From Tribonema minus (Eukaryota > Sar > Xanthophyceae > Tribonematales > Tribonemataceae), in contig JAFCMP010000018.1 in the NCBI GenBank assembly GCA_017506865.1, positions 1 to 64,000 on the forward strand: a DNA stretch of 64,000 nt. Reading direction: 5' to 3'. The translations under genes were made by a program, and so were the position numbers. Within the stretch, counting starts at the first letter, position 1. Every line of letters begins with the position of its first letter. The notes beneath the pieces were generated by a model, which did no database searches, was not told the DNA's origin, and was given only the letters and a program-made list of their open reading frames with translations. This document shows, one piece after another, positions 1-36,297 of this stretch.

Positions 1-976
1 AAGACAGTCCCTTACCTCGTGCTAACCCCGCCCGCAAGGGCAGCAGCGTGGTGATCGCTGTTCAATGTATCACTGCTCGAATCGTGTCAAAGCCTTTCGA
101 GGACCCAGATTACGTAAAGCAATACGTAAAGAACAGCCGTGGGAAGCGAGTTAAACGTTAATCACGCTAGGTTCCTGCACTAGAATGCTTATGACGGGGC
201 GGCGTAGTGGTGCACCGCTACGTCGTGACCCGCCCCCTTGATGTCAACGACGCAGTGCGTGCTGCACGGGTCTGAGCAGCAATGAACATGCAACTTCATT
301 TAGCTGGCCTTATTCTGCGGCTCATCTGTGGTTGATGACCGTGGTCACGTGGACCCATATAGGGCATCGAGGGTAGACCCGTGCGGTAGCGCGCTGTGTA
401 CACCAGCTTGCGCGCCGTACACTATCACGTCACGAACGCACCAGAGTCTCCCGGGAGAACGCGCGGAGATCCTTTAGGGGGGACACGTGATAGCTTGTGT
501 ATCAGAAGTCACAGAAACGGTAGTGACTTGTCATAAACAGTGTTAAGTGGTTGCACTCGAGAAGTCTCGAGAAAAAGCGCACAAAGGGGCATGCGCTGCC
601 ACTTCTCTGGCTGTAACGGTTGCCTATGACTAGAATAAAAACCCTACCGCATGCTCTTCCTTAGTAATTTGCTCTAAAGCTGATATGACTAGCTTTTTGC
701 AAAGAAGGGGGAGAGGAGTCTAGCTTAAGAGCAAAGCGATGCAATTTTGCTTCATGATTGTACGGCCGCAATTGTGTTGCAGAATTGACAACGCGGTCGA
801 TCTGTACAACTGCTATGTCAAACTGGCTGGCTTGCAGTTCAGAGTGCCCTAGTAGCATCAGACCTCGTGCAGAGGCGTGCGGGGCATAGACGGCTCGTGC
901 GCTGACAATTTAAAATCATGGTTTTGTCGTCGCACTCAGCTTCATGCGCGTGAATCGTGTGCAGGATACACCATAA
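1..976. other. Sequence before the first retroelement ORF (leader or flank)
   Basis: No convincing ORF. It is probably the untranslated leader of the element and/or flanking DNA. An AATAAAA-like stretch lies near 633. I see neither a repeat of the 3' flank nor a clear tRNA-complementary primer site. Confidence 0.35.
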
Positions 977-2758
977 ATGGTCAAGACTGACCATGGCTCC
1001 AAGAAGCCAACGAGTGGGTCAAGCCGCAGCGGAGGTGTTAGTGGCGGTGCTAGGCCTGCTGGCAGCACTGCTGCTAAGAGCAACAAGGGCGGTCAGCGCT
1101 CCGCTACGCGCCCCGCACCAAGCTCGGGTGACAAGCCGTCACGCCCCCCTCCCCGGCCCGCGGCAGCGTCCGCACAACCCAGCCAGGTCGGTGCCAGCGC
1201 GCCCGACACGTCTGCCTCGGTACGGTCCACAGAATCAGTAGTCACTGGTGCCGCACCTCCTTTTATACGTAATTTCGCTGAGTCCAGCGACGAGCCCGGC
1301 GGTGGCGGCTCAGAAGCCGAAGCCATAGTGGCAAGGCAGTTACGTTTGAGGCAGAAAAGAGAACAGCTTGCAGCAATGGGCATTATGCTTAGCGAAGCCC
1401 AGGTAGCAGAAGGCGAAGAAGCTTTTGCACGTGCAGCTGTTGAGAAAAAACTCGCACCAACGAAAAGCCCACGCAAGACACCGCGTGCAGCTGCAACAAC
1501 CGCGCCAGTTGTGCCGGTAGCCGCGCCAGCTGTGCCGGCAGCGCCCGCGAAGTCTGCGGCGCCAGCACCTGCAAAGTCCACAGTGCCAGTTGCAGCACTG
1601 GTTGCGCCCGCGGTGGCCCCACCTAAGGTCGCGCGCAGTCAGCCGGCCAAGACGTCGGTTACGCGCGGTGCACGGGTCCCAGTTGCGGCGCCTGAAGTAG
1701 CACCGGCGGCTCCGACGCCTCAGAGCTCCAAGCCATCAGCTAGGCTAGTGGCTCCCACATACTATACTGCACCAGCGAGGGCCCCTGAAGCCTCAGATAA
1801 ATCGCCTGTGACGCAGCCGCGTCGGGGTGAAAGTGGTAAGGCGCGGCGTGTGCCAGTTGTGCCACGTAGCGTGCCAGTCGTGCAAAGTTCGCCAGTTGTG
1901 CCACGTAGCGCGCCCGTCATACCGCGAAAGCCAGTTGAGCAACAAGCGGCAGAGCGACGGAGGGCAGTTAGGCAACTGCTCGAGTCTTCTGAGTCATCTG
2001 GTGATGAGGGTGGTGTGCCCTTTGATCCTGAGGGCACAGATGAGGCTTATGACCAGTGGCGTGAGGGCATCGAAGCTCGCGTCGAGGCACATAAGCGAGC
2101 TGCCAAGGCCGCCAAAACGGCTGCAACGTTCGCCGAAATTCACGAGCGTGCCCTTTACGAACGCCTTGGCGAGCTCCAGCTTCGCGTCACCAGAGCTCCC
2201 AGTGAGAGCAAGAACATGGTGAAGAACTCACTGCTGCCGATGGCGCGGACGTTCGCTGCGGAGCAGGCCGAAGAGGTGCGCAAGCATAATGTTGCACTTC
2301 TGGAAAAACGTGGTCATGACTTCAAAGCTAGCCAGTTCGGCGAGCTGCTGACCATAGGTAAACACCGTAAGCGGTCCAATAGTTGGCATCGCTTCGCCTT
2401 CGGCACAGGCGACGGTGAGGAGGCGGAACTCTGGCGAATGCTAAGGGAGTTCGAGAACACGCCTCTGGTCACCGAGGAGGCGCGCCTAGCTGCGGACACT
2501 TACCCGCGCAGCTTGGTGACGCACCCGTTCCTCAACACTGACGGGCACTCCGACACGTCGGACGACGACGCAGCCGGCGCAGCTGCGAGTCCGCGTGAAG
2601 ATGGCGCAGTGGCCGGCGTAGCCACCAGCGCATCGGCTCTAGGTGAGAGCATTAGGACTGCGGGGGCAGTAGAACCCTCGTACTCCTCAGTTGCCATGAC
2701 GGCGCGGAAACCCAAAGTTGACTTGAGGGTTTCGGCGGCACTGGCGTCGTCATTGTAA
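977..2758 (+). CDS. Retroelement ORF1, Gag-like N-terminal protein
   Basis: 593 codons starting at ATG 977. The first ~330 residues are low complexity, rich in Ala, Pro, Ser, Lys and Arg, with repeated short V-P-V-A/V-V-P blocks; a basic N-terminus could bind nucleic acid. From about residue 335 the chain becomes charged and helical (an acidic SSESSGDEGG stretch, then long E/A/R/K helices), as expected of a structural or assembly protein. It has no recognisable enzyme domain. Its stop (2756-2758) lies inside the next ORF, which is open from 2722 in the -1 frame, so ORF2 could be reached by -1 frameshifting. I infer a Gag role from position only; no known domain is visible. Confidence 0.7.
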   Translation: MVKTDHGSKKPTSGSSRSGGVSGGARPAGSTAAKSNKGGQRSATRPAPSSGDKPSRPPPRPAAASAQPSQVGASAPDTSASVRSTESVVTGAAPPFIRNFAESSDEPGGGGSEAEAIVARQLRLRQKREQLAAMGIMLSEAQVAEGEEAFARAAVEKKLAPTKSPRKTPRAAATTAPVVPVAAPAVPAAPAKSAAPAPAKSTVPVAALVAPAVAPPKVARSQPAKTSVTRGARVPVAAPEVAPAAPTPQSSKPSARLVAPTYYTAPARAPEASDKSPVTQPRRGESGKARRVPVVPRSVPVVQSSPVVPRSAPVIPRKPVEQQAAERRRAVRQLLESSESSGDEGGVPFDPEGTDEAYDQWREGIEARVEAHKRAAKAAKTAATFAEIHERALYERLGELQLRVTRAPSESKNMVKNSLLPMARTFAAEQAEEVRKHNVALLEKRGHDFKASQFGELLTIGKHRKRSNSWHRFAFGTGDGEEAELWRMLREFENTPLVTEEARLAADTYPRSLVTHPFLNTDGHSDTSDDDAAGAAASPREDGAVAGVATSASALGESIRTAGAVEPSYSSVAMTARKPKVDLRVSAALASSL

Positions 2759-4848
2759 CGCAAGTAGGCAGGCTTGAAGCTTCCATTAGAGCTTTTGAGC
2801 GTAGCTGCGACACGCGTGGCGTGCCCAAGTCGGCCTACTCAGAAGCGCTGTTGCAGAGTCTGACCAAGAGTCAGTACGCTGATCTGACCAGCGCAGTCAC
2901 CAATGAGCGCACGGGAATGCTAGAAACTCGTGCGTTTAGTGATTTGTCTTATGAGCAGATGGTGCAATGCCTTACGGCAGCGTACGATAGCACATCTGCC
3001 AGGCAAATAGCACTTCAAAAGTATCATGAACTCACGCGTACCTCCGGTACCAGCCCCGAAGTGTGGGGCAGGGAGGTAGTTGCAGCCGCGCACGACGCCG
3101 GCTGCGCGGACAACCAGCAAATTGTTCGTATGAAGTTCGTTCATGAACTGCCATTATGCTGCCGTCAAGAAGTAAACGGCATGTATGAGACCTGGGATCT
3201 AAAGAACACCGCTTTTCCCAAGGTCGTGGCAACTGCCCAGCAAAAGTGGCAGGCAGCGCCTATTGACGAGCGCGAGACTCGAAATGTTGTGTCTGCAATG
3301 GCCGCGGCACACATCTCAACCCCCCCCTACTCTGACACAGGCAAGCGCCCTGCCAAGGATGGGTGGAGCGTGGTCAGTAACGACCATCGCTATAAAAAGA
3401 AGAATAAGCTTTCGGCTGTTCGCGCTGTGTTGGCGGGGCTGAGCGCTAACGAGCGTCGCCAGCTTGGAGTGAGCGACCGCGCGCCGCAGGGCAAGGCTAG
3501 CTCCGCAGGCGATAATGGCGGCGGCGGAGCCAAGCCCCAGAGCAACTTCAAGTGTCTTGGCTGCAGAGTGAACCAGGGAGACTGGGACACACTTATGCGG
3601 CACAAGACTACCTGCCCTCAGTGCATTGCTCACCGAAAGAGGATGGCAGAAAAGCACCGCCAAGGTGAATCACACTTGCAGTTGTCTGCTGCCTTGGTAG
3701 GAAGTGACTTGCCTGCTGCAAGTTCAGCATCAGCAATCAGTGAATTGCCTGGTGTAGTTAGAGCAGATGCATGTTCGGCACAGGTAGCTGAGCATGCCAC
3801 TGACGCTGTTTACGATGTCTCTTTGCGCGCACAGATGGCGGCAATTGAGGGTGGGCCAGAGCCACCACCCAGAGTTATCAAACACGCGTCTATCTGCTGT
3901 GGGGCGCTAGGAGGCGCCATAGCTGGGGGTAAGTTGACCTCTAGAGCAGGTTTTGTAACACGCACAGTGCTTGCAGTTGACAAGAATGTCAAGGCAATTG
4001 AGGCTCTGCATGAAGTTCATCCAGAAGTGCCCACAATGACTGCATGCATGACTGATGCGAAGGTTGTTGCACGTCTTCTTGACGAGAAACCTGACATCAC
4101 CACCATCTCCCCGCCCTGCACAGATTTTTCGGCAGAGGGCAAGAAGGTCGAGGGCGAAGCTGCCGAGTGCACGGTCCATGCCGCACGGCTCATCGTGCGG
4201 GCCAAGCTTCGGGTGGTGTTGTATGACAATGTGCCAGGAGTGCTAGTGTCACGCGCGTTTGCACGCGCAGTACGCATTCTCAAGTCGGCTGGTTACATGC
4301 TGTACATTGCCAAGTTAAAGGCTTCTGAGTTTGAAGTACCTTGCAGGAGGCAGAGGGTGTACATTGTCATAGTACCAGCAGGGGTGGCCTCACGTGAGGC
4401 GCTCCAGAGGTTCAGTGCGGTAATAAATACCAAGCGTTTACACAGCAGACCCACATCTGTTCGCTCTCGCTTGCGCTGCCCCGAACGCACATTCTTCTTG
4501 CAACCACGCAGTGCTCAGCACCCTGGTGTTTTGGATGCTGATGGCTTGTTGCCTAGCCCAGTGCGCAGACTGCCTGGTAGGCCCACTGCGAGTTATGTTG
4601 CACATGCAAAGGACGCTGGCCCAGTGGCATCTGCCCGCTTGCTGTCGCTTGCGGAAATGGCGGTGCTCATGACGTATTATCATGAATTACCAGCGAGTGC
4701 ATGCAGTAGTGATGTACGGCGTTACATTGCAGACTTGTTCATCCCAGAGATGGCACATTTCACTTGTTCGTGGCAATTGAGGCCTCAGGCCTGTGCACAC
4801 TGCCAGAGCAACAGGTACGTTTGCCGCGTAGGTCAGACTCTACGTTGA
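2722..4848 (+). CDS. Retroelement ORF2: capsid-like domain, zinc finger, cytosine-C5 DNA methyltransferase
   Basis: Residues are counted from a GTG at 2821; the frame is open from 2722 and lacks an early ATG. Residues ~1-160 form a helical capsid-like segment. Residues 245-271 form a zinc finger, C245-x2-C-x12-H-x3-C-x2-C-x2-H271. Residues ~355-650 form a C5-methyltransferase: motif I (SICCGALGG, ~357), motif IV PPC with the catalytic Cys433, motif VI as DNVPG (Asp469 where Glu is usual), motif VIII VPCRRQR (~506-512), and a C-terminal segment like motifs IX/X. The family transfers a methyl group from S-adenosylmethionine to cytosine C5. Cys433 is intact, so activity is plausible; the E-to-D change could lower it. 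The last 136 nt overlap Pol in the -1 frame. The methyltransferase call is firm; the capsid call is weaker. Confidence 0.85.
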   Translation, partial: LEGFGGTGVVIVTQVGRLEASIRAFERSCDTRGVPKSAYSEALLQSLTKSQYADLTSAVTNERTGMLETRAFSDLSYEQMVQCLTAAYDSTSARQIALQKYHELTRTSGTSPEVWGREVVAAAHDAGCADNQQIVRMKFVHELPLCCRQEVNGMYETWDLKNTAFPKVVATAQQKWQAAPIDERETRNVVSAMAAAHISTPPYSDTGKRPAKDGWSVVSNDHRYKKKNKLSAVRAVLAGLSANERRQLGVSDRAPQGKASSAGDNGGGGAKPQSNFKCLGCRVNQGDWDTLMRHKTTCPQCIAHRKRMAEKHRQGESHLQLSAALVGSDLPAASSASAISELPGVVRADACSAQVAEHATDAVYDVSLRAQMAAIEGGPEPPPRVIKHASICCGALGGAIAGGKLTSRAGFVTRTVLAVDKNVKAIEALHEVHPEVPTMTACMTDAKVVARLLDEKPDITTISPPCTDFSAEGKKVEGEAAECTVHAARLIVRAKLRVVLYDNVPGVLVSRAFARAVRILKSAGYMLYIAKLKASEFEVPCRRQRVYIVIVPAGVASREALQRFSAVINTKRLHSRPTSVRSRLRCPERTFFLQPRSAQHPGVLDADGLLPSPVRRLPGRPTASYVAHAKDAGPVASARLLSLAEMAVLMTYYHELPASACSSDVRRYIADLFIPEMAHFTCSWQLRPQACAHCQSNRYVCRVGQTLR

Positions 4849-7800
4849 GGCATTCAGTTGACTGCCCGCCCCCATCTTGGTTGGCTGGTCAGAGTGGTTC
4901 GCTGGTGCAGGCCGCTACCGCGGTACACGCAGCGCCCTCGTCAAGTGCACACTGCTCAGCAGCAGTGGCGCGTAGCATACATGCAAAGGCGCATGATGCA
5001 GGGTATGCAGAGGTACCCATAATTCCGATGCGCAGTGCATGGGAAGAGCCAGAGGTAGACTTGGCTGTGGTGCAGCCCGGCATGGCTGACATCGTGGAAG
5101 TCGATGACTCTGACTCAGGGTCTGACTCTGAGTGGGACTCACAGTCAGTTATGAGCGTTTGCAGTAGCGCAGACGACATGGACATTGACACAGAAATCAG
5201 TGCTCCACCCATTGCGGCCGCAGCGGCACGCAAGAAGCTCGGCGGCGGTACAGACCCGCGCCTTGCCCCAGGTGAGTTGAAGGCAGCGCTCAGGCGCGCT
5301 GGCCTTGATGCTCAGTCTCTAGGCATATTAGACCATGTGCCAGGTGTCAGCAAGTTAGACACAGCCCCACCAGTGAGTGTGGCAGAGACAATTAAGAATC
5401 TCACAGAAGAGATCACAAAACCGAAGGAACCAGTCAAGTTACCTCATGTAGGCCTTGCAGTAGGGTCCCCTGAGCCTAGCTCGGTAGAGCGCTCCAAGTC
5501 GGAGGCTCCAGTGGAGTACATACGCCCAGTAGCCGGTGTTGTACCTCCAGGGCAGATGTTTGTGTCCGCGTCGTTACGCGTACAAAGCAACTCTCAGACG
5601 CCCAAAGAACTCTATGTGCGCGCCATGGTAGACTGCGGTGCGACCGTAACCATCATGGGCAAGCGCATTGCAGACAAGCTCCCCAACAGCTATGTATGTA
5701 CACCTCAGCAAGGTGACTACACTGAGATCCTCTTGGCAGACGGCAAGACGTCGCTGCAGATCAGTGGTGTGGTCAATGCATGGCTGCGGTTTAAGAACAA
5801 GATGTTCTTGCACAAGTTCTATGTGGTGAACGCACCCATGGACGTGCTCTTAGGTACGGATTTCTTTGCCCCGCATGGCTCAGTCATCTCGTATCACGGC
5901 GGTAGCCCAGCCTTCTTCCCAGGGGGACTAAAAGGTGTGGCCATACGCCCCATGCACGACAAGAATCGCGCAGACAACGCGAACGCGCATGCGGCAGCAC
6001 TAGCCAGTTGCAAGGGCAATGGCAGCGCTGAGAGCACTGAGGCACCAGACAAGCCTCAGCAGTGCTCAGCTAGGATGGCATATAACACTGTACTGGCACC
6101 ATCGTCGGAGACGATTGTGGAACTCACGCTGCTACCAAAGCCAAAGCGCGTGCAGCCCTATGAGGCATTGCTCATGCCACAAGAAACAGTAACTACAGAA
6201 ATGATGAGAGGCAAAGGTGTTAAGGCAAATATCACCGCTCTCACTGTAAATGCCAGCGGCACGATATACGCTACATTGAGCAACACTTCAATGTACCCGA
6301 TTTACGTGCGTCGCAACACGTATTGGGGAAAAGTGACTCCAATTAAGGCTGATGATCTGCTAGAAGTGCAGACAGCTACTCAGCAGGCTCTAGAAGCCAA
6401 ACTGCTAGTAATAGCGGCCAAAAGGCACTCTGAAAATGCTAAGTTAGTGGCAGAATTAGCTGCTAGCATAGGCAAGACTGCCAAAGAGGTTGCACAAGAA
6501 GTGCAACGGCTGGCAGACCTTAGCCAGCGCCACAATGACCAGCTAGAAAACTGCACGGATGCAGAGCTGGAGGAAATCCTTGTGAAAGATGGCAGGCTTG
6601 CGCCTCATTTGCAAGAAAGGGGGAAAGATGGGGTACTTTTAAAAACAAAAGCACTTGACATGCTAAAAAAGCACAGGAATGTCTTTGCTAAGGACCCTAA
6701 AAACCCTCGAGTCACTCAGCATTTTGAGATTGATGTTGACACTCAGACGGCCGAGCCGGTGGCGGACAAGGCACGCCATTGGGCTTTCAAAGAAGCCGAG
6801 TACATCATGAAACAGATTCAGATGATGGCAAAGCGCCAACAGATTGAGCCATCAGCTAGTGCGTGGGCAAGCAACCCAGTACTAGTGGTTCAAGGCGACA
6901 AGATCCGCTTCTGCATAGACTTCAGGAAGTTGAATGCGGTCACGAAGCGTGATAGTCATGGCTTAGGCAACATAGATGACATGATGCGGGCTGTGCAAGG
7001 TGCCAGGATTTTATCTTCGTTAGATCTGGCAGCGGGTTACCATCAGATCCCGCTGGCGAAGACGGCTAAGGCCAAGACGGCCTTCAGAGCCCCAGACGGC
7101 TCGTTGTGGCACTACAAGGTGGCGCCATTCGGGCTGGTGAACTTGCCAGCGCAGTTCACGAGATTGATGCACCAAGTGCTGGGAGATGCCTTAGGCTCCC
7201 ACGCGCTAGTGTACATAGATGACGTGTTGGTGTATGGCACGGACATCGAGGAGCACATCGAGCAGTTAGATGATGTTCTTGGCCGCATAGGCGCGGCGGG
7301 CATGAGTGTATCTCGCCCAAAGTGTCAGCTGTTTCAAGCTGAAGTCAAGTTCTTAGGCCATATAGTTGGCGCCGCTGGAACAAGACCAGACCCTGACAAG
7401 GTCAAGGCCATGCTTGACATGAGCCCCCCACTGAAAGGCGGGGTACCAGACAAGCAGTTGGTACAAGTGGTTATGGGAGTGTTTAACTATTACAGGCGAT
7501 ATGTACCCAACTTTGGGGCGATATCAGAGCCTATAGTAGCCCTGACCAAGAACAAAGCAGTCATGGTTTGGGGGTCTGCGCAGGAGCGGGCTTTCAAGCG
7601 GCTGAAGAGTGCCATGTGCGACAGTCGCATAGTGATGCACCCAGATTTCAGTTTGCCTTTCGTATTGTACACCAACGCCTCCAAGACGGCGACGGCAGGT
7701 GTGCTTACACAGTTCAGACCTGTGAGTGAGGTCGAAAGGGCAACAGCGGGACAGCCATATGCTCACACGGGCAGGCGCCGCATAGCTGAAGGCGAGGAGG

Positions 7801-10800
7801 TCAGAGAAGTAGTCGTTGGCTACTTCAGCAAGCTGAACTCTGAACCCGACGCGAAGTTAGGAGCGACGGCAGTAGAGTGTCTGGCAGTAGTGCTGGCGCT
7901 CAACCACTTCAGGCCTTACATTTGGGGTAACCCCGTTACAGTGGTCACAGATGCCGCTGCGCTCAGGTGGCTGTTGACGTTGCAAGACTACAACGGCAAG
8001 CTACTAAGATGGGCCATGCGCATACAGGAGTATGACGTTACCATTCAGCACAGGCCTGGCAAAAGGAATGCCAATGCTGATGCCCCATCCAGGCTGCCAC
8101 AGCAGGCAGAGTTAGATGCTGAGCGCTCTACGGAGCCAGCAGACGAACAGTGGCCAGACGCAGTCCCGAGCATGGACGCACCGCCGTCAGGTGTGCGCTT
8201 TGCGGACGAGGCCACGAGAACGCACAAGGTGGCCGACGTGAACAGCTGTCGTGGGTACACGGCGGATGCACGTTACGGGCCAGCGTTCAAGTTCAACGAG
8301 GCCGTCGCCATATCAGGCGTAGTGGCCGCTAGGTTAGCCGCTCTGACAGCTGTGGAGCTAGCACAGTTGTTGGACAGAAGGCTAGATGACTCCACGGTGG
8401 AGGAAGCTGAGGTTGATGAAGTTGAGATCAACACAGCGTACGCAGAGCCAGTCAATAAGTACACCGGCTCGTGGGAGCATTCCCAAGCGCAGCGACTCTT
8501 AAGGCAGATCGCATGCGACAGGCGACGCAGCATCAGCTCAAAGAGGGCCAAGTGCAGCGTCACCACGGCTCAACCGGCGGCAGACTCCTTGGAAGAAGGA
8601 GAAATTCCAAAGGTAGAAGCTGCTGCTGATGCAGATGAGGCAGACGAGCCGCCGGATGGCGAAGCTGTTTTAGGCAAGCGCAAGAAGACGCTGCCAAGGC
8701 CAGAAGTAGTGCAGTTGCTGAAACGGGTGGCCGAGGGAGACTCGCCTGCCACGCCAGCAATGCTCAGCAGAGCCGCATTTCTTGAAGTTCAGAAAGCGGA
8801 CGGTTTCTGTCAAGCAGTGAGCAAGATGCTCATTGAGGGTGACATACCCGAAGGCGCGGAGCTAGCCGCTCACGTCTTAGCACAGAGAGAGCAGTATACC
8901 ATCGAGGAAGATGGCCTCTTAGTGCACAGTTCAACAAGCCACCCCAAGAGAGGTATGGTGTTGTTGCAGTGGGTCGTGCCAGTGGTGCTACGAACCCTAG
9001 TCATGCGTTTAGGGCATGATGACGCGAGCGCTATGCATTGCGGCATAGGCGCTACGCACACGCGTATATTCGAGAGGTATTTCTGGCCTGGTATGGGCGC
9101 AGACATACGAACGTACGTGCAGAGTTGTATGACGTGCCTAGAACGCAAGCGCGCCAGCTCCACTCAATATAAGCAGTGGTTGGCTGAGCCAGTGCGCATG
9201 TGGCAACGTCTCAACATTGATATCACAGAGCCTGGTATCCAGTCCGCAGCGGGGCATAAATATGTTCTGACTATTGTGGAGACGAGGTCCGGTTTTGTAT
9301 GGCTAGCCGCTATGCATGGCCAGGGTACTAAAGATGTAACCCCGCACCTCATGACAGTGTTCCTAGAGGTTGGAGCATTAGTGGAGGAACTATGCTCAGA
9401 CAAGGGCAAAGTCTTCCTTGGCAATGTGGTCAGTGACCTTTGCAGAGCGTTTAAAGTTAAACGCATAGAGACCAGTGCATACCACCCACAGACCAATGGT
9501 GTGGCAGAACATGCAAATGGTCGTGCTAAGAAGGCACTAGCATCTTGGGTCAGCGCTCAGCAGACAAACTGGCACGAAGGCTTAGAGCTCGTACAGTTTG
9601 TGTTGAGGACAACTCCCCGAGATGAAACAGGTTTAACACCCTTTTTCTGTGTGTACGGTCGGGAGGCTTCACTGCCACATGATGCGTTTATGCACGAGGA
9701 TGGCAGCAGGAAGTTGGACCTGCACGAGGAGATTGAGCACAAGCTAGATATGCTTGAGCTTGCAGACAAAGTGGTGTCAAAGGCGCTGCAAGTGCGCGCC
9801 CAGAAGATCACCAAGCGCAATGAAGCTATTAAGCGCGCGGTGAAGTTCGCCGTCGGTGACTATGTCATGATACGGCTGCCCAGGCAAAGAGACAGGTCGG
9901 CTGCTCTTGATGCCAGGTATGTGGGGCCTTGGCAAATCGAGGCTCGCACAGGCGAATCAGGTCTCTCATTCATCTGCAGGATGATGGGCAGAAGAGTTAG
10001 ACACACCACAGCTCATGTTGAGAACATGAAGCCCTTCCACATGAGGCCTAGTGCCATGTTGGAGCCAGGTGTGCACGCCATGCTGAGCCCCCGACAAGTG
10101 GAGGAGCTAGCAGATGGTGAGAAGTTATACAGAGTTCTGGACCGCCAAGCGGGCCCCAATGGCTCGTGGCAGTACAAATGGCAGTCCATAGATGGCAAGT
10201 CACATGCGTGGGTGTCAGAGGATGACATGCTGCAAGAAGTGACGCCATGGACCTTAGACGCTTTTCACGCGCTCTATGAGCTGCGCAACGAAGGAAGGTT
10301 GCCGGCATATGCCATCAGGCCCACACCTAAGGAGGATGCTGGCATGCGCCGAGAGAGCGCGCTGCAACTCTATCCCATCGGCACAGCGCTGGTCAGGGAG
10401 CACAGAACGGTAGTGGGCGGCCCGATCACTTACGTGTGGGGGGCCGTTAAGAACTTTGTGTCACCATACTGGAGGATCAGATATGAGGATGGTGAGTGGG
10501 AACAGATGACCCGTACACAGGTCAAGTCTGCCATACAGTTGGCAGAGGCAGTGCGTGACAAAGCCAAGAGGTTGCAGGCGCAAAGCGCGCCGGACAGCGC
10601 GAGTAGTGCAAGTCCCAACTCTCAGGTCACGCGAGGTCTGCCATCTTCCCAAACTAGTTCTGAGGCAAGCTCAGCCCAAAATTCTGCTCAGCCGCAGATC
10701 TCGCTGGTAAGGCTGCCCAAACTGCCATCTGATTTCGGATCAGACTTTGAGGGTGAAGTGATCTGGTATCACTTTCCAACAGGCTGGAGCCGCGGCGTCC

Positions 10801-10979
10801 TGGGTGAGTTTTACCCCGCCAGGTCGCAGTTCACGTTTGATGTACTATTCGACGGTGAGAAGACTGTCAGACGTATGCGCTTACGTCCGGGTGACTACCG
10901 CACGCCAAAAGACAGCCCATACTCATCATGGAACGTGCTCGCCGCTCGCAGTGTATCCTCAGAGGAGAGTGCGAAGTAG
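4713..10979 (+). CDS. Retroelement ORF3: Pol (protease, RT, RNase H, integrase, chromo/Tudor-like tail)
   Basis: About 2,070 codons, numbered from a TTG at 4764; the frame opens at 4713 with no early ATG, so a -1 shift from ORF2 is likely. Aspartic protease: DCGAT (D290) and LLGTDF (~361). Reverse transcriptase: LDLAAGYHQ (D754), PFGLVNLPAQF, YIDD (D819/D820). RNase H: E1038, D1063 and D1106 present, but the first acidic residue is Asn971 (TNAS instead of TDAS). Integrase: zinc site H1418-x6-H-x29-C1455-x2-C1458 and catalytic D1486, D1546, E1582, an exact D-x59-D-x35-E. After it come a GPY/F-like module, a chromodomain-like segment (YRVLDRQ...WQYKWQ...W) and two Tudor-like segments (YEDGEWEQM; W...GVLGEFYP...DGE). 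Apart from N971 the enzyme set looks functional. Confidence 0.92.
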   Translation, partial: CTALHCRLVHPRDGTFHLFVAIEASGLCTLPEQQVRLPRRSDSTLRHSVDCPPPSWLAGQSGSLVQAATAVHAAPSSSAHCSAAVARSIHAKAHDAGYAEVPIIPMRSAWEEPEVDLAVVQPGMADIVEVDDSDSGSDSEWDSQSVMSVCSSADDMDIDTEISAPPIAAAAARKKLGGGTDPRLAPGELKAALRRAGLDAQSLGILDHVPGVSKLDTAPPVSVAETIKNLTEEITKPKEPVKLPHVGLAVGSPEPSSVERSKSEAPVEYIRPVAGVVPPGQMFVSASLRVQSNSQTPKELYVRAMVDCGATVTIMGKRIADKLPNSYVCTPQQGDYTEILLADGKTSLQISGVVNAWLRFKNKMFLHKFYVVNAPMDVLLGTDFFAPHGSVISYHGGSPAFFPGGLKGVAIRPMHDKNRADNANAHAAALASCKGNGSAESTEAPDKPQQCSARMAYNTVLAPSSETIVELTLLPKPKRVQPYEALLMPQETVTTEMMRGKGVKANITALTVNASGTIYATLSNTSMYPIYVRRNTYWGKVTPIKADDLLEVQTATQQALEAKLLVIAAKRHSENAKLVAELAASIGKTAKEVAQEVQRLADLSQRHNDQLENCTDAELEEILVKDGRLAPHLQERGKDGVLLKTKALDMLKKHRNVFAKDPKNPRVTQHFEIDVDTQTAEPVADKARHWAFKEAEYIMKQIQMMAKRQQIEPSASAWASNPVLVVQGDKIRFCIDFRKLNAVTKRDSHGLGNIDDMMRAVQGARILSSLDLAAGYHQIPLAKTAKAKTAFRAPDGSLWHYKVAPFGLVNLPAQFTRLMHQVLGDALGSHALVYIDDVLVYGTDIEEHIEQLDDVLGRIGAAGMSVSRPKCQLFQAEVKFLGHIVGAAGTRPDPDKVKAMLDMSPPLKGGVPDKQLVQVVMGVFNYYRRYVPNFGAISEPIVALTKNKAVMVWGSAQERAFKRLKSAMCDSRIVMHPDFSLPFVLYTNASKTATAGVLTQFRPVSEVERATAGQPYAHTGRRRIAEGEEVREVVVGYFSKLNSEPDAKLGATAVECLAVVLALNHFRPYIWGNPVTVVTDAAALRWLLTLQDYNGKLLRWAMRIQEYDVTIQHRPGKRNANADAPSRLPQQAELDAERSTEPADEQWPDAVPSMDAPPSGVRFADEATRTHKVADVNSCRGYTADARYGPAFKFNEAVAISGVVAARLAALTAVELAQLLDRRLDDSTVEEAEVDEVEINTAYAEPVNKYTGSWEHSQAQRLLRQIACDRRRSISSKRAKCSVTTAQPAADSLEEGEIPKVEAAADADEADEPPDGEAVLGKRKKTLPRPEVVQLLKRVAEGDSPATPAMLSRAAFLEVQKADGFCQAVSKMLIEGDIPEGAELAAHVLAQREQYTIEEDGLLVHSSTSHPKRGMVLLQWVVPVVLRTLVMRLGHDDASAMHCGIGATHTRIFERYFWPGMGADIRTYVQSCMTCLERKRASSTQYKQWLAEPVRMWQRLNIDITEPGIQSAAGHKYVLTIVETRSGFVWLAAMHGQGTKDVTPHLMTVFLEVGALVEELCSDKGKVFLGNVVSDLCRAFKVKRIETSAYHPQTNGVAEHANGRAKKALASWVSAQQTNWHEGLELVQFVLRTTPRDETGLTPFFCVYGREASLPHDAFMHEDGSRKLDLHEEIEHKLDMLELADKVVSKALQVRAQKITKRNEAIKRAVKFAVGDYVMIRLPRQRDRSAALDARYVGPWQIEARTGESGLSFICRMMGRRVRHTTAHVENMKPFHMRPSAMLEPGVHAMLSPRQVEELADGEKLYRVLDRQAGPNGSWQYKWQSIDGKSHAWVSEDDMLQEVTPWTLDAFHALYELRNEGRLPAYAIRPTPKEDAGMRRESALQLYPIGTALVREHRTVVGGPITYVWGAVKNFVSPYWRIRYEDGEWEQMTRTQVKSAIQLAEAVRDKAKRLQAQSAPDSASSASPNSQVTRGLPSSQTSSEASSAQNSAQPQISLVRLPKLPSDFGSDFEGEVIWYHFPTGWSRGVLGEFYPARSQFTFDVLFDGEKTVRRMRLRPGDYRTPKDSPYSSWNVLAARSVSSEESAK

Positions 10980-11207
10980 TTGTGGGGACTCAAGTTGAGT
11001 CAAAGCTGAGGCCGGCGACTCCCTTTTCCTGCAGAGAGGATTTCCCTGACTAGCAGGTTTGCCTCCCAGGTTTTTAATGGGGTTTCCAACCAGTTCTATA
11101 TTGGCCTCCATGCTTAGTAGTGCACTTAGTGCGAGCATGCTGCAATTACACTAGGGACCGCGATCTGCTGCTTCGAGTTCAAGTCCGCATCGAGGGCGAT
11201 GCTCAGC

Positions 11208-11219
11208 AAAGAAGGGGGA
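11208..11219 (+). other. Candidate polypurine tract of the retroelement
   Basis: AAAGAAGGGGGA followed by TCTGATACGG, about 230 nt after the Pol stop, is where plus-strand priming and the start of a 3' LTR (possibly TGATACGG at 11222) would be expected. No matching 5' LTR is seen in the window. Confidence 0.45.
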
Positions 11220-11221
11220 TC

Positions 11222-12849
11222 TGATACGGCTTGGGGGTGTATTCAAACAGTTACAGGCAGTTACACCTCACAGGTTGGCACAGGTCTAAGTAGACCTGTG
11301 TAGTCGGTGTAGACCTTGACATGTGATTGAGAGCTGGCCTGACCTTAGTTGAAGGCAGGTGCAACTAGTTGGGTCACATGCCAAAGGGCGCATCAAAGTA
11401 GTATGCACAGCATCAGAACCTCCCCTGCAAGCAGCAAGCCCGAACCTTGCTGTGCCAGCCATCGTCCAGCCCCAAGCCTTCCGTCTCTCAGCAGCAGAAT
11501 AAAATATCCGGTAAGCGCATCGCGTTTCCTTTCGCATAACATTTCATTTGAGTTCTCTGAAGCGTGTCTACTTGTTTTGCTCTTCCAGCTTGCTTGTTTG
11601 CATTCATGACAGCATCACAAGGTAAGCCGCTTCAAAAGCACCATCGATGGCTGTACCCTCAAATATAAATATGCACACCCTTGGCGAGTGCGCGGCGCGC
11701 ACTTGTAGCGCGGGCCATGCCCAGAACGGTATGCGCTTTTCGGTGCCCGCTGGAGCATGCAACTGAAGTCCCACGATTTACCATGCCACAATCTTGTACT
11801 ACACATGTGTGTATGTATGGTCGGCTCGAACATTGCTGTTTCAACCACTGCCACCCACTGATGCACAAGATCCACGCTTGCAGTCACTGCCGCAGGCGTG
11901 CTGCACGCGCCCAGCCGCGGACCGTGCGCGGAACGGTCTGCACTGCACGGACCTGTCCGAAGACGGCCGCCTTGATGCTGACACGCATTCACGGTGCTCG
12001 CACAGGCGTACTCATGACGCTCCACGCACAAGAGGCAACCCCAATCACTTGAAGTGAAGACGCAGCGTGCAGACGGACACCTGTGAATCCTTTTGGAGCA
12101 GCATGAGCGTAACCTGGCATGCATCGACACTCAGGCTGTAAGGGAACATCAGCTTCAAGTGTACACAGCACCGTGTTCGGGCGGACCGCCGTTGCATTGT
12201 GTGCCAGCGTAGTCTAGAGTACTCGACAACAAGGCGCTGTGAACACTGCACGGTCCTTGCATGCTGCTGTTTGCTGCATGTGCACGTCCTCTTTGGTGTG
12301 CGCTTTGGTACCAGCATTTGTACTATCCAAGACGCTGCCACCTCATTTACAACTGCACCAAGGCGCCGATGCACCATATAAAAAGCAAGTGCTCAGCACC
12401 ACTGCTCAACAGGATGAACTGGCAGAAAGTCCACCTATGTACATGAGGCTGTGCTATAATGCATACCCCATAGTCTGACTTGTACAGTGCCTGCGCACAC
12501 AGCAGCGCATTTGCCAAGTTGTTGCAAGCAAGGATGCTGGTGTTTGGGGAACATGCCCCGCGAGACCTGTAGCATAAGAAGCCGCTTCTGCGCTGCAAAC
12601 CAGCACAATCAAGAAAACCTGGCTTGACACTCCAACCGTAGTGACTGCGTACATGTGGCTGTGCTCATGGTGTTTGCATGTAAGATATCACTGGAACACC
12701 CAGTACCAATACACCAGTACGTACTCGTTGACGCAGCAGCGGTTCCTGCTGTTCAAGTTGTGAGAATCGCAGGCAAGAGTGCAATTATGATGTTGTGCGG
12801 GCACTTGCAGAACTCCCTGCCGCTGAGCCATGCTGCACACCACGCGTCA
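11222..12849. other. No gene recognised; possible 3' LTR start, then intergenic
   Basis: Only short overlapping ORFs. An AATAAAATA near 11500 could be a polyadenylation signal of a 3' LTR, but its end cannot be placed. Nothing else is supported. Confidence 0.4.
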
Positions 12850-28100: not shown

Positions 28101-31100
28101 AATGAAAAGCCCGTGCTGCGGGCACAGCTCACAGATGCACCCGATGCCGCAAGGACCCATGCCACAAGTGCAGTGCGTGGAGATGAAAATAAAAACAAAC
28201 AAGCGCATGGCTACCACGCCAAAGTGAAGCACCCTGCTTAGGTAGGTTTAGGGCAGGGTTAGGGTTAGGGCTAAGTTAGAGCTCAGCGCAAGACGTGGAC
28301 ATCGGGCAGGGCAGCATAAGAGGCCGCGCCATCCTACAGTGCATACTCTTCGACAAAACAACTTGGGTAGATAATGTCGAGCAGTGCCCATATCGAGCAG
28401 CTACACACATGCGCGCGAGCCTCACTGCAACAGCCAAACGGGGCGCACACGCGCGCTCTCACCCTGCCGTCGGCAACGGTTCGCTGCAACAGCCAAACGG
28501 GGTGCGCGCGCTCTTAAAGGTGCATGAGAGTACACGACTGTCAAGTAGCTGTCCATACCAAGCAGCCACACACACGCGCGCGCGCGCACGAGGGTCACTG
28601 CAACAGCCGCAGGGGGCGCACGCGCGCTCTCACCCTGCCGTCGGCAAACGCCGTGAAGCGCGCGCCGTCGCGCGAGCGCTGCTGCACCACCACCTCCGCG
28701 CTCAGCGCACACCCTCCCCCCCAACGCCCCACCCCCCCCCAGCCCCCCCGCCGCCACCGCCGCCGCCTCCACGCCACCAGCACCAGGCGCCGCCGCTGCC
28801 GCCGCCGCCGCTGCTGCGCAGCGCGCCGCCCACGCCTCATACTGCGTGCGCAGTGCCACGGCGCGGCGCGCAACGGCGGCGAGAAGCGAGGCGTCGGCGT
28901 CGCCGCACGTTGCCGCGCCCATGTGCGCCGCGGCGTCGATGTAGATCACGCGTGGGCGGCGGCGGCGGCAGTGCTGCTGCCCGTCGCCGCGGCGATGCTG
29001 CGTGAGGAACTGCGCACACGAGGCGGCGGCGGTGGCGGTGTGAGCGCCGATTGCCGCAATCCGCGCGTGCGGGCGCCAAACATCAGAATAGTGCATGCAT
29101 CGACGCACACACATCAGACTGAGTGCGCGCTTGCAGCATGAATCACATTGTGCGCAACACCTCCGGTTGCTGCTTCGGTGGGCCCGTGGGGAGGTGGTAG
29201 TCAGAACGCAGACTGCCGCCTGCTCAGCGCCCTCCCTCCCGTGGCACCTCGCAGCTCTCCAAGAAGGAGTACGCAGTGCACAACATACCTACGGTATATG
29301 TTGATGCTCCGCTGACTACACGATGCCCCCGGACGCCAGCAGCACCACACGACAAGTCCCCTCAACATAAAAATATTGAGCGCTGCGCCTTACCCCCCAT
29401 ACCTACGGTATGCATCAGTGCTCCCTCCAGTACACATTACAATGCGTGTAGACAGTATGCGACACGCCCGCGTGCGCACTGTGCTGAGCGCTGTGACTTG
29501 CCTCGCCCGACAGGACGATCACGCAGCTGCCACAGTGGGGCTGCACCACAACCTCCACGCCGCTGCCGTCGCCGCTGCCCCCGCCGCCGCCGCCTCCGCC
29601 GCTGCCGCCGCTGCTGCCGCGTTCCAGTGTGTGTCGCCTCCACCGGATGTGGTATGATGCCTCATCCGTTTCCTCTGCCACCACGCTCAGCGGACCATAG
29701 TATCCTGGTGGGAGGGCGCAGCAGAGAGGATGGCTGCAGGTCACATTTGCGGTGACCGCGCGCAGGCGGGGGCGCGGCGCGTTGCGGCGCATGCCCGCAG
29801 CCGCTGCCGCCTTCACGTCAGCCACTGGCATGACAAGGTTACGCGGATAACAATGAGCTCTGCAGAATACATGCGACGCGCGCTACCGACTTCGCGGGCT
29901 ATTGCAATGTGTGGTAACATTTCACTCGCCCCCCCCCCCCCCCCCCCCACACACCCCACACTAACTAGCACAAGCGTCTGCTGCGCGGAGGCTTCAAGAA
30001 GCAGAGGCGCGTGCCGCCGTGCGCCACGCTTGGTGCCACACCAAGCGTGCGCAGCCGCAGCAGCAGCGGCAGCAATGCGCTGCATTGGGGGCAGCACGGC
30101 GGCGCCCATGCTGCATGCAACTCCGGCAGAACATTACCGTGATGCAGGGTACTGAGTTGGGAGAAGCGAGGCAACATACAATCGTAATCACTCGTGTGCA
30201 AACGCGTTTGCAGCCGCTTACCATCACCAAGCGCCATCTGCAGCACGTCATACGGCAGCAGCGCGTCGCCACCGCCGCTGCCGCCGCTGCTGCTGCCGCC
30301 ATCTGTCCAGCCGCCGCCGCCGCCCGACGCCACAGAGCCCCACTGCGGACACTCGGTGGCTGGCTTGCAGCGCGGCAACCGTGTCTGCACATAGTCGCCG
30401 TGCCCCGCAGCAGCGCTCGACTGCTGCTGGCACGGCGGCGCATGTTCATGCGGTGTGGGCACCAGACGCGCCGCTGCCGCTGCCGCCGCCGCTGATGCGC
30501 AACCTGCGCCGCTGCCACGTGGCAGCGGCGCCCTCACGCCGAGCGCGCGTTCCGCCGCCACGCATGGACGCTGCTGCTGGTGCTGCTGCTGCTGCAGCGG
30601 CGGCGGCGAGTTCTCGTCGACAAAGTGCCCTGATGCTGGTGCTGCCGTCGCTGCCACTGCTACTCCGTCCCACGCGCTGCCGCCGCTGTTGTCGCGCTGC
30701 TGCAGCAGCTGCTGCGCCAGGCGCAGCGGGTGACGCCAGCACGCAGGGACAGCATGCAGGGGATGGACTTGGGTGATGCGCACGTAGTTGCCGCCGCCGC
30801 TGCCGCCGTTATTGGTCGTGCTGCGAGTCGCGCAGCGCGTTGACATTGCGGAGCTCTGCCATGGGTCCGTCTCATCTGCATGGCAGCGCAAGAGAGCGGG
30901 CGGTGAGATGGTAAGTATGGGGCAGGTGGGGCAGCTTGCCGCGCAGTTCGAATCAATGTGGCCACAGCAGCAGCGCTCAAGCGGCGGCCGACGATGTGCG
31001 CCAGCGGCGGTGCGCCCGGTAGATCGCAAGCTGCGATCCTTTGCCGCGTTTGGGCAGCGGCTGGGCACTGTGCACCAGCAGCGCTCAAAGCGTGCAGCAG

Positions 31101-33261
31101 CAGCAGCAGCTCGCCACATCAGACATGAGTCGCAAGCGCGCTGAGCACTGCAGCGGGAGACGCCCTTGTCTGCGCGTGCGGGACCCCACCGCACGCATAG
31201 ACGTGCTGCTCTCGCAAAGAGAATCTGCAGGCTCGACTGGGGCCGCGCAGATTCAGACTGCAAAACACGCGCGCCACCCGTGGTGCACATTGTGGTGTGC
31301 GGCGGAGTCGCCGAAATGCACGAGCGCGCTGCCAATGGCCATACGCCTGCACTGAATGCAGCGGTACCGGCCCCTTCAGGTTCTCGTCACTTTGCAGCCT
31401 GAGCCTGAGCACACACTCTCACAGGCCGCACAGCCCGCCGCATGGTCCAGCTCCACGTGTGTGCAGAGCATGCAGCGCCGAATTCGTCCGCCGTGCGCAG
31501 AGGGAACGACGCCGTCACGGTGCAACTCATGCCTGGACACACGCTCACGCAGGCCCCACAGCCCCCTGCATGCCCCAGCTCTACAGGGCTGTTTGTGCCC
31601 GCGGCGGCTGCGACGGCAGCAGCGGCGCGGCAGCAGCAGCGGCGGCGGATCAGGCAGCACCCACCTTCGTCTGCCGCTTGCACGTCACAGTGCAGTCCAT
31701 GCCTGAGCAGACACGTACTCATACATACATGCGCGCCAGCCCTCGTGTGTCTGAGCAATGTAGCACCCACCTTCGTCCGCTGTGCGCACGGGGAACGTCA
31801 CCGTCACAATGCAAAACATGCCTGAGCACGCCCTCACACACGCCCTACAGCGCCCCCCGCATGCTCCAGCTCCACAGGCGGCAGCAGCAGCGGCGTGGCA
31901 GCAGCAGCGGTGCGGCAGCAGCAGCGGCGGCGGACCACACAGCACCCACCTTCGTCCGCCGCGCGCATGGGAAAGGTGACCGTCACTGTCCTGCACAGCG
32001 CATCCAGTACCAGCTGAGCACTGCCGTCGACGGCATCGACGCGCACGCCGTCGGGCGTCAGCGACGCGAACGCAGGGTCCAGCGCCGCACTCCACAGCGC
32101 TGTTCCCGTCGCCGCCGCAACTGCTGCAGTTTTGACGCCGCCGCCGCCGCCGCCAGTGCTGCCGCCGCCGCCGCCACCAGCGCAGCCGTCGCCGCCGCGC
32201 CTACCCTTACAGGCTGCGTTGTCAGCAGTCTGACAGAGCAAGGATCCGGCACCGCTGCTGCCGCTGCCGCTGCTGCCGCCGCCGCCGCCGCCGCCGCAGC
32301 CACTGCTGCTGCCGTGTGCAGGAGGGGCAGTGCACAAGAGGCGTGCACAGACATACGGCTGTGGCGCGTGCGCGTTGCGGAGGCGCAGCGCCGCGGCGAC
32401 CTTGGCGCGGTCCGCTGTCGCGGCGAAGCGCGTGAGCTGGCGTCGCGCGCCGCCGCCCTCTGTCACGTGCGTCATGCACCTGGCAGGGGGGGGGGGGGGG
32501 GGGGGCGTGAGCAGCACGATGTGCACACAGCGTTTCACAGGGGAAAAAATCGCATTGACTCAATCAACACGTGCACGGTTGAGTTGACGGATCGGGGTCA
32601 AAAAGGGCGGCCTGTGGCAGCAAGTGCCTCAGCTGGCGTGCTGCGTCGCGTACAGTTGCTCTACCGCAGATTCGTCGTAGCGGTGAGCGCGATGCGAAAG
32701 GGGGTTACATATTGAGAGCAATTGGCATGATGGTGCCAGTTCGCTGTTGCATCTGCGGTAGTGAGCGGTGATGTGGGTGTGTGATGTGTGGAGTTGCGGG
32801 CATGTGATGCGTGAAAACAAGCATAGATTGCACGTGCAAATTCAAAAAGCGCTGCAACGACAGCCGTGCACGAATCTTATGATCCTGTGGATGCGGCTTG
32901 TCCTGACGACACTTTGTCTATTGCATATGCACATCCTCTTAGGGCGCTGAGCGCATGCATGCACTCAGTCAGCTCATGTTACTTCACTGGCAGCTGTCGT
33001 CGCACAAACAGTTTTTGTACGAGCTCCTGCCCACAATTCAGCGCGCAGAAGGCCATGCTGATCACGAGAGCGAGCGCACTCTCATGATCAGTGAAGGACG
33101 AGAAAACCCGAGTGGCCAGGGTCATCATTTTGAGGAGCGTGCATGATGTTCACCTTCCGTCGGGTTCCAGCACGAAAGCTTCTCCTTCGAGGCTCCTTCC
33201 TCCAAAGCTGGGCTTTGCAAAGCAGGCGATCACCTGGCCCCCCGTGCAGTACATGAGGCGT
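25190..33261 (-). CDS. C5orf34: C5orf34-like protein, eight exons found, first exon(s) missing
   Basis: Exons: 33261-33154, 32479-31950, 30875-30222, 29704-29502, 29009-28634, 27364-27315, 26062-25703, 25367-25190 (stop 25192-25190). Phases agree at every junction. Compared with the human C5orf34 family as I remember it, exon 1 (YCTGGQVIACFAK...FVLEPDG) fits the N-terminal domain, exon 2 the RTHFVISTYRE-like helix (LTRFAATADRAKVAAAL), exon 3 the Y...CW-HPLRLA block, exon 5 the helix plus ARFTAFADGR, exon 6 AVFPDRVILTLD, and exon 7 CILPDGARLAL. The family's function is not well known. Gly/Ala-rich inserts from trinucleotide repeats enlarge it. Exon 5 is one nt out of frame at a poly-C tract (28720-28750), either a sequencing slip or a lesion. 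Exon 4 uses a GC donor. Confidence 0.65.
27420..27660. repeat. Tandem copies of the start of C5orf34-like exon 6
   Basis: The acceptor plus exon start around 27345-27395 (GGTCCGGGAACACC...CTCACCTGCG...ACATGAACACGGGCGCGGC) recurs at about 27447-27500, and more weakly near 27560 and 27640, inside the intron just upstream (minus strand) of the real exon. Confidence 0.65.
28415..28655. repeat. Tandem copies of the 3' end of C5orf34-like exon 5
   Basis: The block CTCACCCTGCCGTCGGC, with flanking GCACACGCGCGCT and CACTGCAACAGCC, occurs at the true exon end (28629-28646) and again at about 28459-28476. The exon edge and its donor have therefore been copied into the intron. Confidence 0.65.
31470..31960. 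repeat. Tandem copies of the 3' end of C5orf34-like exon 2
   Basis: The exon end that reads VTFP-R-ADE plus donor GTGGGT on the minus strand (31950-31985) recurs at about 31765-31805, 31660-31695 (weaker) and 31485-31525. Each copy is followed by the same intron-like sequence with GCATG(C)CTGAGCA on the plus strand. Confidence 0.65.
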
Positions 33262-34980: not shown

Positions 34981-35080
34981 CTACGCGCCCTCGCGCCGCG
35001 CGCACGCGCACGGGCAGCCCAGCGCGTGCAGCTGCTGCATCCAGCGCTGCGCGTCCGCCGCCGCCGCCCCCTCCTCTGAG

Positions 35081-35123
<43 letters not shown>

Positions 35124-36297
35124 GGCCGCGCACAAGCGCGCACTCCGCCGACGTCCACCGCCCCCACGGGCACGCGAAATCCGACACTATACGCACCACG
35201 ACAGAGGCATCCGCGTGCGTGCGTGAGCGCACGATGTGCGCGGCGCCGCCAACGGGCCACTCCGCTCCCGCGTCCCTCAGCAGCCACCGGACCCGGGCCC
35301 GGACCACAGGGTGCGCATACTGAGGGAGCTTCGTGAACCCCACGGCAGTATACGCGACGAGGGCGTTCAGGTTGTGCTGCGCCAGTGCCTCAAACGCGGC
35401 GATGCTGCGGAGCCACGTAAGCTTTTCGAGCGCGCCGCGCTCTGCGGCGGCGGCGGCAGCGCCCGGCAGCGCATCGCTGCAACCGTGCAAGCTGAACTTG
35501 ATGATGGTCGCGGCGCGGAACGGGTACGCGGGGTGCGCGTGCAGCCACTGCAGCAGACGGCAGCTCCCCTTTGTGGCGGCGAGTGCAGCACTGCAGTTTG
35601 AGAAGCACGATAGGGGGGGGGGGATGCCGGAGCCGGCGAGCGCTTCCACGAACGCCGCCTGCCCGTACCAGATGGCATGATCCATGAGGCTGATTGTGTG
35701 TGTTGCCGGTTCATGCGTCGGCCTGATGAACAATACCTCGTCGGCACATGTCACGGCACGGCACGGCGCAACGACCTGCTTGTCGAATGCCTTCAGGTCC
35801 GCCCAGCAGAGCCGCTCCGCAATGTCCTGTCCCGTTAGCTGCCGCCCCCTGGCGTGCAGCCAGCGGAACGTCTCGAAGTGGCCGGCCCGTGCGCACTTGA
35901 AGGCCAGCACCGTGAGCAGCAGCGGCGGCAGCCGCACCTCCCCCGCCGCCGTTCCCGCCACAACGCTCCCCTCCGGGCTCGCGGCATCGAACACCCACCG
36001 CAGCACCCTGATGGCTTCCGGGCGCTCGCATTCGCCTATTGCGCGCAGCGCCGCCGCCGGCAGCGCCCACGCGCGCTGCGCGCGCCACGACGCGCGGTAC
36101 GAGAGGCACAGGCACCACTGGTCGAGCGCTGCCACGCAGCCGCGCTCCGCAGCGCCGAGCAGCACGTGCGCATCGACCATGAGCTGCGCGGCCATGGCTT
36201 CTTGGATGGCGACGCAGGAGAGTGCTGCGCGGCCGAGTGCGACCTTGGCGCGCGCGCTGCTGCTGAGCAGTAGCGCGAGGGCGCCGTCCTGAGGCAT
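34981..36297 (-). CDS. Ankyrin-like repeat protein, left-arm copy (intact)
   Basis: 438 codons from the ATG at 36297 (MPQDGALALLL). Degenerate ankyrin-type helix pairs: HVLLGAAERGCVAALDQW (~40), AIRVLRWVFDAA (~85), VLAFKCARAGHFETFRWLHA (~115), MDHAIWYGQAAFVEAL (~185), CRLLQWLHAHP (~225). A Gln tract (14 Q) and an Ala-rich stretch lie near the C-terminus, which ends CARREGA. The ATG is embedded in a splice-acceptor-like context (poly-C, then GCCTCAG), so the true start could be in an upstream exon. Such proteins usually bind partners; no enzyme signature. The right-arm copy is ~85% alike in protein by eye but has a stop. Confidence 0.6.

Follow-up and report, generated by a model that had tools for sequence, protein, structure and literature searches.

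Why would a retrotransposon carry an enzyme for the very mark that usually silences it? This question is raised by the beginning of contig JAFCMP010000018.1 of Tribonema minus (Xanthophyceae), here called C18, of which positions 1-64000 were analysed as one stretch of 64,000 nucleotides (the window). Positions 3865-4761 of the window are predicted to encode a C5-cytosine methyltransferase (MTase) that lies between the Gag zinc-finger region and the protease of a Ty3/gypsy-type retrotransposon with long terminal repeats (LTRs). Known retrotransposon C5 MTases have been described as host-enzyme acquisitions in two algal lineages. The MTase considered here is of a non-Dnmt3 kind and appears to have descended with the reverse transcriptase (RT) across strongly diverged element families, with MTase identities down to about 20%, and the question that it raises is testable within one genome.

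The assignment as a C5 MTase, which an initial annotation had made from the sequence of the open reading frame (ORF) at 2722-4848, is supported by both profile and fold. The frame (forward strand, as are all parts of the element given below) runs for 708 aa without a stop, its earliest start codon being a GTG at 2821, and PF00145 (DNA_methylase) is the sole Pfam family in it, matching residues 391-550 of the ORF with E 4e-16 and 59.8 bits against a cut-off of 22. An AlphaFold model of the ORF (mean predicted local distance difference test score 76.6, with residues 191-256 almost all below 50) returned in Foldseek a top 50 in which all 50 rows were titled C5 MTases (best E 3.8e-12, TMq 0.43-0.59). 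The domain itself, placed at 3865-4761 by PF00145, genome match and fold, comprises motifs I-IX and the beginning of motif X. A motif scan located all four of the motifs named in the annotation, in the order given there: motif I CCGALGG (3895-3915), motif IV PPC with the catalytic Cys433 as numbered from the GTG (4111-4119), motif VI DNVPG (4225-4239) and motif VIII RRQRV (4345-4359). It also located a IX-like LSLAEM (4642-4659) and an X-like IADLF (4726-4740); these stretches are what we take to be motifs I, IV, VI, VIII, IX and X. All 21 of the other genomic MTase sequences that were read retain the catalytic Cys of motif IV (loci L031-L046, L048-L051 and L056, several of them near-copies of each other). 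The same 21 have ENV in motif VI, as do the metagenome proteins P0002-P0004, and this ENV is absent from the window copy, which reads DNV.

The MTase had also been taken for a separate ORF ahead of the protease frame, inside an otherwise complete Ty3/gypsy element. The separate ORF had to be rejected, since a sister copy (L045 on contig C89) reads Gag through Pol in one frame, open from 840 to 9752 for 2971 aa with no stop up to the end of the fetched piece. Pfam finds in this frame, in order, MTase, protease, RT, RNase H, H2C2 and rve, with the protease and rve matches under their cut-offs, and a whole-genome search gave open frames of 3333, 3332, 3306 and 3376 aa in the C89, C537, C34 and C64 copies. 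The family polyprotein is thus predicted to be Gag - zinc finger - C5 MTase - protease - RT - RNase H - integrase in a single frame, and this domain order agrees with the position between zinc-finger region and protease that the annotation had assigned to the MTase. The Ty3/gypsy-type context also holds, but completeness does not: in the window the 5' LTR is gone, motif VI reads DNV, and the frame breaks at about 2.73-2.76 kb and again at about 4.76 kb, within MTase motif X. We read the edges of the ORFs, at 2722-2758 and 4764-4848, as damage of the window copy. The window MTase matches that of L045 at 96% over L045 residues 1-299 of 353, and in the whole-genome search the C18 and C251 copies have an equal score and the same shortened MTase range. 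A separate observation is that dS between the window and L045 is 0.004 in Gag (977-2716), 0.072 in the MTase (3859-4755) and 0.056 in Pol (4758-9557), a pattern that may reflect a mosaic origin from two sister copies.

Is the arrangement peculiar to this locus? The 158-Mb genome was scanned for MTases three times, with only the best-scoring candidates scored: the best 123 of 378 with PF00145, the best 115 of 449 (117 rows) with the L045 domain, and the best 150 of 377 with L056. Merged, the scans give at least 213 MTase places, or at least 209 after removal of four stand-alone ones, a count that includes fragments and in which duplicate contigs would count twice. Starting instead from the RT, 80 of the best 92 of 639 candidate loci (92 loci from 93 rows, C64 having matched in two pieces) are preceded on the same strand by an MTase at a distance of less than 6 kb; in the same 92, an MTase lies downstream in one case and on the opposite strand in another, and among the 12 loci outside the 80, those on C450 and C55 are within 3 kb of the contig start. 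Conversely, 15 of the 16 non-stand-alone loci L031-L046 have a window-like pol downstream, the exception (L035) having its pol region cut off at the contig end. Other genomic copies with the fusion, which the annotation had proposed to look for, are therefore many. Loss of the MTase was suspected in one family with 69% RT (C117, C290 and others), when 25 of the 92 RT loci were without an MTase in two scans, and was rejected once L056 had been read and the third scan supplied the MTases.

These MTases are highly diverged. Two family groups can be told apart, one with the window type, L032/L041, L040/L042/L043, L048, L049 and L056, the other with L031/L033/L039, L044, L034-L038 and L050/L051, and MTase identity between them is about 20%. 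One more family (C69, C157, C8 and others), whose MTase is about 50% like that of the window, comes from the L045-domain scan only and stands outside the trees. PF00145 was found in seven of seven other MTase-bearing proteins that were Pfam-scanned (L045, L037, L032, L043, L044, L033 and P0002), and the MTase of the L056 family was recognized by its motifs and by BLAST matches (best E 1e-50) to the MTases of these proteins. The L048, L049 and L056 families have many copies and long open frames. In L037 a chromodomain (PF00385, E 1e-6) follows the integrase at residues 2661-2716 of the frame 654-9062; the MTase trait therefore spans chromodomain and other element types, and L037 would combine the reading and the writing of silencing marks in one polyprotein. 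Apart from the elements, the genome holds three stand-alone intronless C5 MTases with frames of 367-390 aa (L027, L028 and L029 on C223 and C181, at about 3877-4935); these are its best PF00145 matches (E to 1.7e-35) and are unlike the retroelement clade.

The element family has, to judge from its LTRs, moved recently: the paired 413-bp LTRs of the C516 copy are identical (413/413) and flanked by a 4-bp repeat, TTCG, as target-site duplication, and an LTR pair on C89 has one difference in 413. On C89 (L012, L015) and C64 (L024) an LTR with element sequence on both sides marks tandem elements sharing an LTR, and an open frame of 6208 aa on C311 perhaps also represents two elements in a row. In these recently moving elements the MTase looks to be kept by selection, with a domain dN/dS (nonsynonymous to synonymous substitution rates) of at most 0.25 in six of six pairs: 0.088 at dS 0.42, 0.24 at dS 0.14, and 0.18-0.25 in four pairs whose dS, being above 1, is unreliable.

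Where did the enzyme come from? In a first tree the retroelement and metagenome MTases form one clade with support 93/86 (8 genomic and 3 metagenome sequences), and the same clade is found in later trees at 99/96 (12 + 3) and, with the stand-alone genes removed, at 99/95 (13 + 3). Outside it are human DNMT3A, DNMT1, M.HhaI and 15 database proteins, the latter chosen from matches to a retroelement-MTase profile and thus biased toward closeness; only five of these 15 bear a bacterial name (P0019, P0021, P0026, P0072, P0121), the label "bact" of the other ten being assumed, and references for DNMT5, DNMT6, CMT and DRM are not among the tree sequences. A Dnmt3 origin was rejected, as the approximately unbiased (AU) test does not admit DNMT3A, here one long-branched human reference, inside the retroelement clade (p 0.026 and 0.036). 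Motif IV, moreover, reads PPC in the retroelement MTase versus SPC in DNMT3A, and in these trees the MTase is not Dnmt3-like. For DNMT1 the same test is borderline (p 0.049 and 0.074), and HhaI within the clade is not rejected (p 0.10); as to origin, these trees are limited by long branches and by the selection of proteins for comparison. The nearest rows outside the retroelement clade are P0006 and P0033, with weak support. For one set of 12 loci, the RT tree agrees with the MTase tree wherever both are resolved. Given the single MTase clade, the matching trees and the low dN/dS, a single, ancient capture of the MTase is most likely, since when it has been a standing part of the element, descending with its RT.

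Searches for a source elsewhere returned little. The viral_contigs collection, scanned with two retroelement MTases and one stand-alone MTase (L028), gave no relative, single-protein scans of this kind catching close relatives only. The L045 frame, used as query in a protein search, gave no match, nor did human DNMT3A against the genome, in a search run without a positive control. A virus source by way of a phage match, MT837117 (26.7%), was considered and judged unrelated, as its two MTase ORFs stand, by reading, with McrBC-like genes. This phage-labelled fecal contig (L047) has at 1892-7589 two adjacent C5 MTases and McrB-/McrC-like genes, by reading a restriction cassette.

What, then, would the MTase do for the element? 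The likeliest role, we infer, is methylation of the element's own complementary DNA (cDNA), and we consider it rather probable, from the sequence evidence above, that the window holds a damaged copy of a recently active MTase-bearing Ty3/gypsy-type family whose Gag-Pol MTase acts in this way. Translated within Gag-Pol, the MTase would enter the virus-like particle with the RNA and the RT; its presence there with the RT is to be expected from the single Gag-Pol frame. The protease would free it or it would stay attached, and before or at integration it would methylate cytosines of the element's double-stranded cDNA. The new copy could then pass for methylated DNA of the host instead of appearing foreign, or be kept quiet after landing.

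Several points weigh against self-methylation of the cDNA. The window copy is itself very probably inactive as an enzyme, given its frame breaks, one of them in motif X, and the change from ENV to DNV. Motif IV is not PPC in all relatives, being APC in L048, SSC in L049 and TPC in L056 and P0002; catalysis is possibly altered in the L048, L049 and L056 families, in which the Cys and ENV are kept. The CpG observed/expected ratio is barely reduced, at 0.81 in the element versus 0.90 in the rest of the window. CpG transitions between copies are 2.2, 1.4 and 2.8 times other C:G transitions in three sets, an excess that counts in favour, being compatible with methylated CpG, but that derives from non-independent pairs, without an MTase-free control, and does not tell which enzyme is at work. 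The RT tree contains MTase-bearing loci only, some of its rows being partial, and therefore cannot reveal MTase-free relatives. Finally, the MTase of KnitGypsy-Dnmt3, an element of Klebsormidium nitens, was inactive in yeast, a result called inconclusive by its authors in the portion of their paper available to us (PMC5890265).

A wider form of the proposal extends it to the whole Ty3/gypsy-type clade, with and without chromodomains: its non-Dnmt3 MTase would be obligate, the cDNA would be self-marked independently of the host Dnmt, and the elements may set part of the host methylome. The 80 of 92 best RT relatives with an MTase suggest this possibility, which we regard as a tentative one; the nearest sampled rows would here be stand-alone MTases, perhaps prokaryotic. 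Alternatively, the MTase might act once integration is complete and target chromosomal copies or host genes, silencing sister elements as a form of copy control or shaping the host methylome. The number of MTase places in the genome and the CpG-biased transitions between copies would fit, and a similar spill-over was proposed for Symbiodinium, according to the accessible part of PMC5890265. However, a domain inside the Gag-Pol frame is more suggestive of packaging in particles than of action in the nucleus, and copies recent enough to have identical LTRs speak against tight copy control, which leaves this alternative unlikely.

Less probable again is that the enzyme modifies RNA, such as the primer tRNA or the genomic RNA, in the manner of Dnmt2. 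Although the top two Foldseek matches by E-value are Dnmt2 chains and the domain adjoins a zinc-finger region of the nucleic-acid-binding kind, the prophage MTase 3g7u, DNMT1, HaeIII and HhaI score almost equally, and the retroelement clade stands apart from a host Dnmt2-like exon (AU p 0.021, with that row only 41% filled). We give slightly less credence still to a domain that is no longer catalytic and that helps Gag by binding nucleic acid or as a structural part; the residues around the motif IV Cys have changed in some lineages, and in the window copy motif VI reads DNV and motif X is broken, yet both the Cys and ENV persist in all other genomic sequences read, in lineages down to about 20% identity, and dN/dS is low. 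As for a chance chimera or an assembly artefact, which the frame breaks and the position of the window copy at a contig end might suggest, it is in effect already refuted, because the other copies share the arrangement, on many contigs and at most of the best RT loci, and related MTases occur among metagenome proteins. Methylation of the element's own cDNA thus remains the role that we favour.

The remaining parts of the element surround the MTase in the following way. An untranslated 5' leader (1-976, from genome matches) starts with base 1 in the primer-binding-site area. Positions 1-976 have 41 genomic matches including the window, 33 of which cover all or almost all of it. Window base 1 corresponds to C251:25333, where the LTR ends at 25321, and is about 12 nt downstream of the point at which the 5' LTR stops in other copies; the window therefore begins about 12 nt inside the element, and its 5' LTR is missing at the contig end. 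In most other copies shown, TGGCACCC... sits 3 nt after the LTR as primer-binding site. Also within the leader, at 701-716, is a second purine run that resembles the polypurine tract (AAAGAAGGGGGAGAGG). The N-terminal part of Gag (977-2758, from the ORF list) has 593 aa, the first half low-complexity and Pro/Ala-rich, and is continuous with the next part in L045; the C-terminal part (2759-3864, from the translation) has by eye a capsid-like helical stretch, with a zinc-finger-like motif CX2C...HX5C..C at 3553-3624 from the motif scan. The Pfam scan found no family in either part of Gag.

Downstream of the MTase, the Pol ORF (4764-10979 by ORF list and Pfam, 2071 aa from a TTG) comprises a spacer, protease, RT, RNase H, integrase and a C-terminal tail. 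Above their Pfam cut-offs are the RT (6897-7367, PF00078, E 5.6e-27; YIDD at 7212-7223 by motif scan), the RNase H (7644-8033, PF17917, E 2.4e-21) and the integrase H2C2 zinc-binding domain (8976-9152, PF17921, E 1.4e-16). The aspartyl protease-like domain (5616-5867, PF13975, E 1.5e-4, under the curated cut-off) and the integrase core rve (9204-9488, PF00665, E 4.3e-6, 27.4 bits against a cut-off of 32.6) are below theirs. The order protease - RT - RNase H - integrase is present with these two weaker matches, and the label Ty3/gypsy-type is taken from this order and the LTR features, the RT tree being one without named Ty3/gypsy reference RTs. In the Pol C-terminal tail, at about 10300-10960, two stretches look Tudor-like by eye, with no Pfam match. 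The element closes with a polypurine tract (11208-11221), the same purine run preceding the LTR in the fetched 3' copies, and a 3' LTR of 413 bp, TG...CA (11222-11634, from genome matches and LTR copies); these two are the only terminal features that the window retains. Positions 10980-11700 have 40 genomic matches including the window, most of which stop at about 11634, with two beginning at the LTR start. Elsewhere in the window, two Pfam matches below cut-off are on the reverse strand, the C5orf34 second domain at 29968-31335 (E 4.3e-5) and ankyrin at 34984-36507 (E 0.0015). In the wider genome, psaA/psaB plastid fragments occur within long, presumably nuclear contigs (C168, C490, C107 and others; L052). 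A psaA fragment of 53 residues is closest to kelp 9YGV (49 of 53 identical) and 9M4F (50 of 53), and one antenna exon is FCP-like, with diatom-type FCPs as its nearest matches; a second antenna exon matched the repeated LHC chains of 9vfj in many weak stretches only. The plastid fragments and the FCP-like exon suggest a host with a plastid of the red lineage, tentatively an ochrophyte.

How does this element compare with known systems? Stand-alone enzymes such as 3g7u from an E. coli prophage, M.HaeIII, M.HhaI, P0006 and P0033 have the same fold and motif order, unlike the element MTase in being separate proteins; the database proteins that were aligned share about 18-28% identity with the window MTase. 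Much closer are JGI metagenome proteins, with P0002, P0004 and P0005 57-62% identical to the window MTase and P0003 78% identical to L050. The LGGG.DPRLAPGEL spacer found directly after the MTase in the element recurs in P0002 and P0005. All four, P0002-P0005, are partial and are known as proteins alone.

The accessible text of several papers bears on the comparison. Morozov et al. 2019 (PMC6338049) state that several groups, Stramenopiles among them, have Ty3/Gypsy and DIRS elements with methylases of DAM or DCM type; the part available leaves unspecified which groups have the C5 type in Ty3/Gypsy and describes no element of this arrangement. For the brown alga Ectocarpus, in which 5-methylcytosine is negligible, the available part of a transposable element survey (PMC12477816) describes a Sola DNA transposon with an N4/N6-type methylase and likewise no element of this arrangement. 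DNMT3 members in retrotransposons are mentioned in the seen part of a 2025 paper (PMC12344493). The nearest precedents are SymbioLINE, SymbioDIRS-Dnmt3 and KnitGypsy-Dnmt3 of de Mendoza et al. 2018 (PMC5890265), whose accessible sections suggest cDNA self-methylation and report de novo CG methylation in yeast by two of the SymbioDIRS MTases. According to these sections, the Symbiodinium elements SymbioDIRS-Dnmt3 and SymbioLINE-Dnmt are also retrotransposons with C5 MTases in hundreds of copies, but are DIRS elements with a tyrosine recombinase or LINEs, whereas the window family has LTRs and an H2C2/rve integrase. KnitGypsy-Dnmt3 is more similar, with gypsy domains and a C5 MTase in the coding region, purifying selection on the MTase and intronless copies. 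However, its MTase is Dnmt3-related and in the Pol polyprotein ORF, a position compared by ORF and without the domain order inside it, and its repeats are DIRS-like; here the MTase is non-Dnmt3, between the Gag zinc finger and the protease, and the repeats are ordinary direct LTRs. In a partial search of the literature on the topic, with subscription literature mostly outside it, we did not find this arrangement described. The expectation in the initial annotation of another lineage or arrangement than those of Symbiodinium and Klebsormidium is thus borne out by the trees, the distinct position and the repeats. Retrotransposon C5 MTases as such are already known; new, on the present evidence, is a non-Dnmt3 MTase that appears to form one clade, tracks the RT and occupies this domain position.

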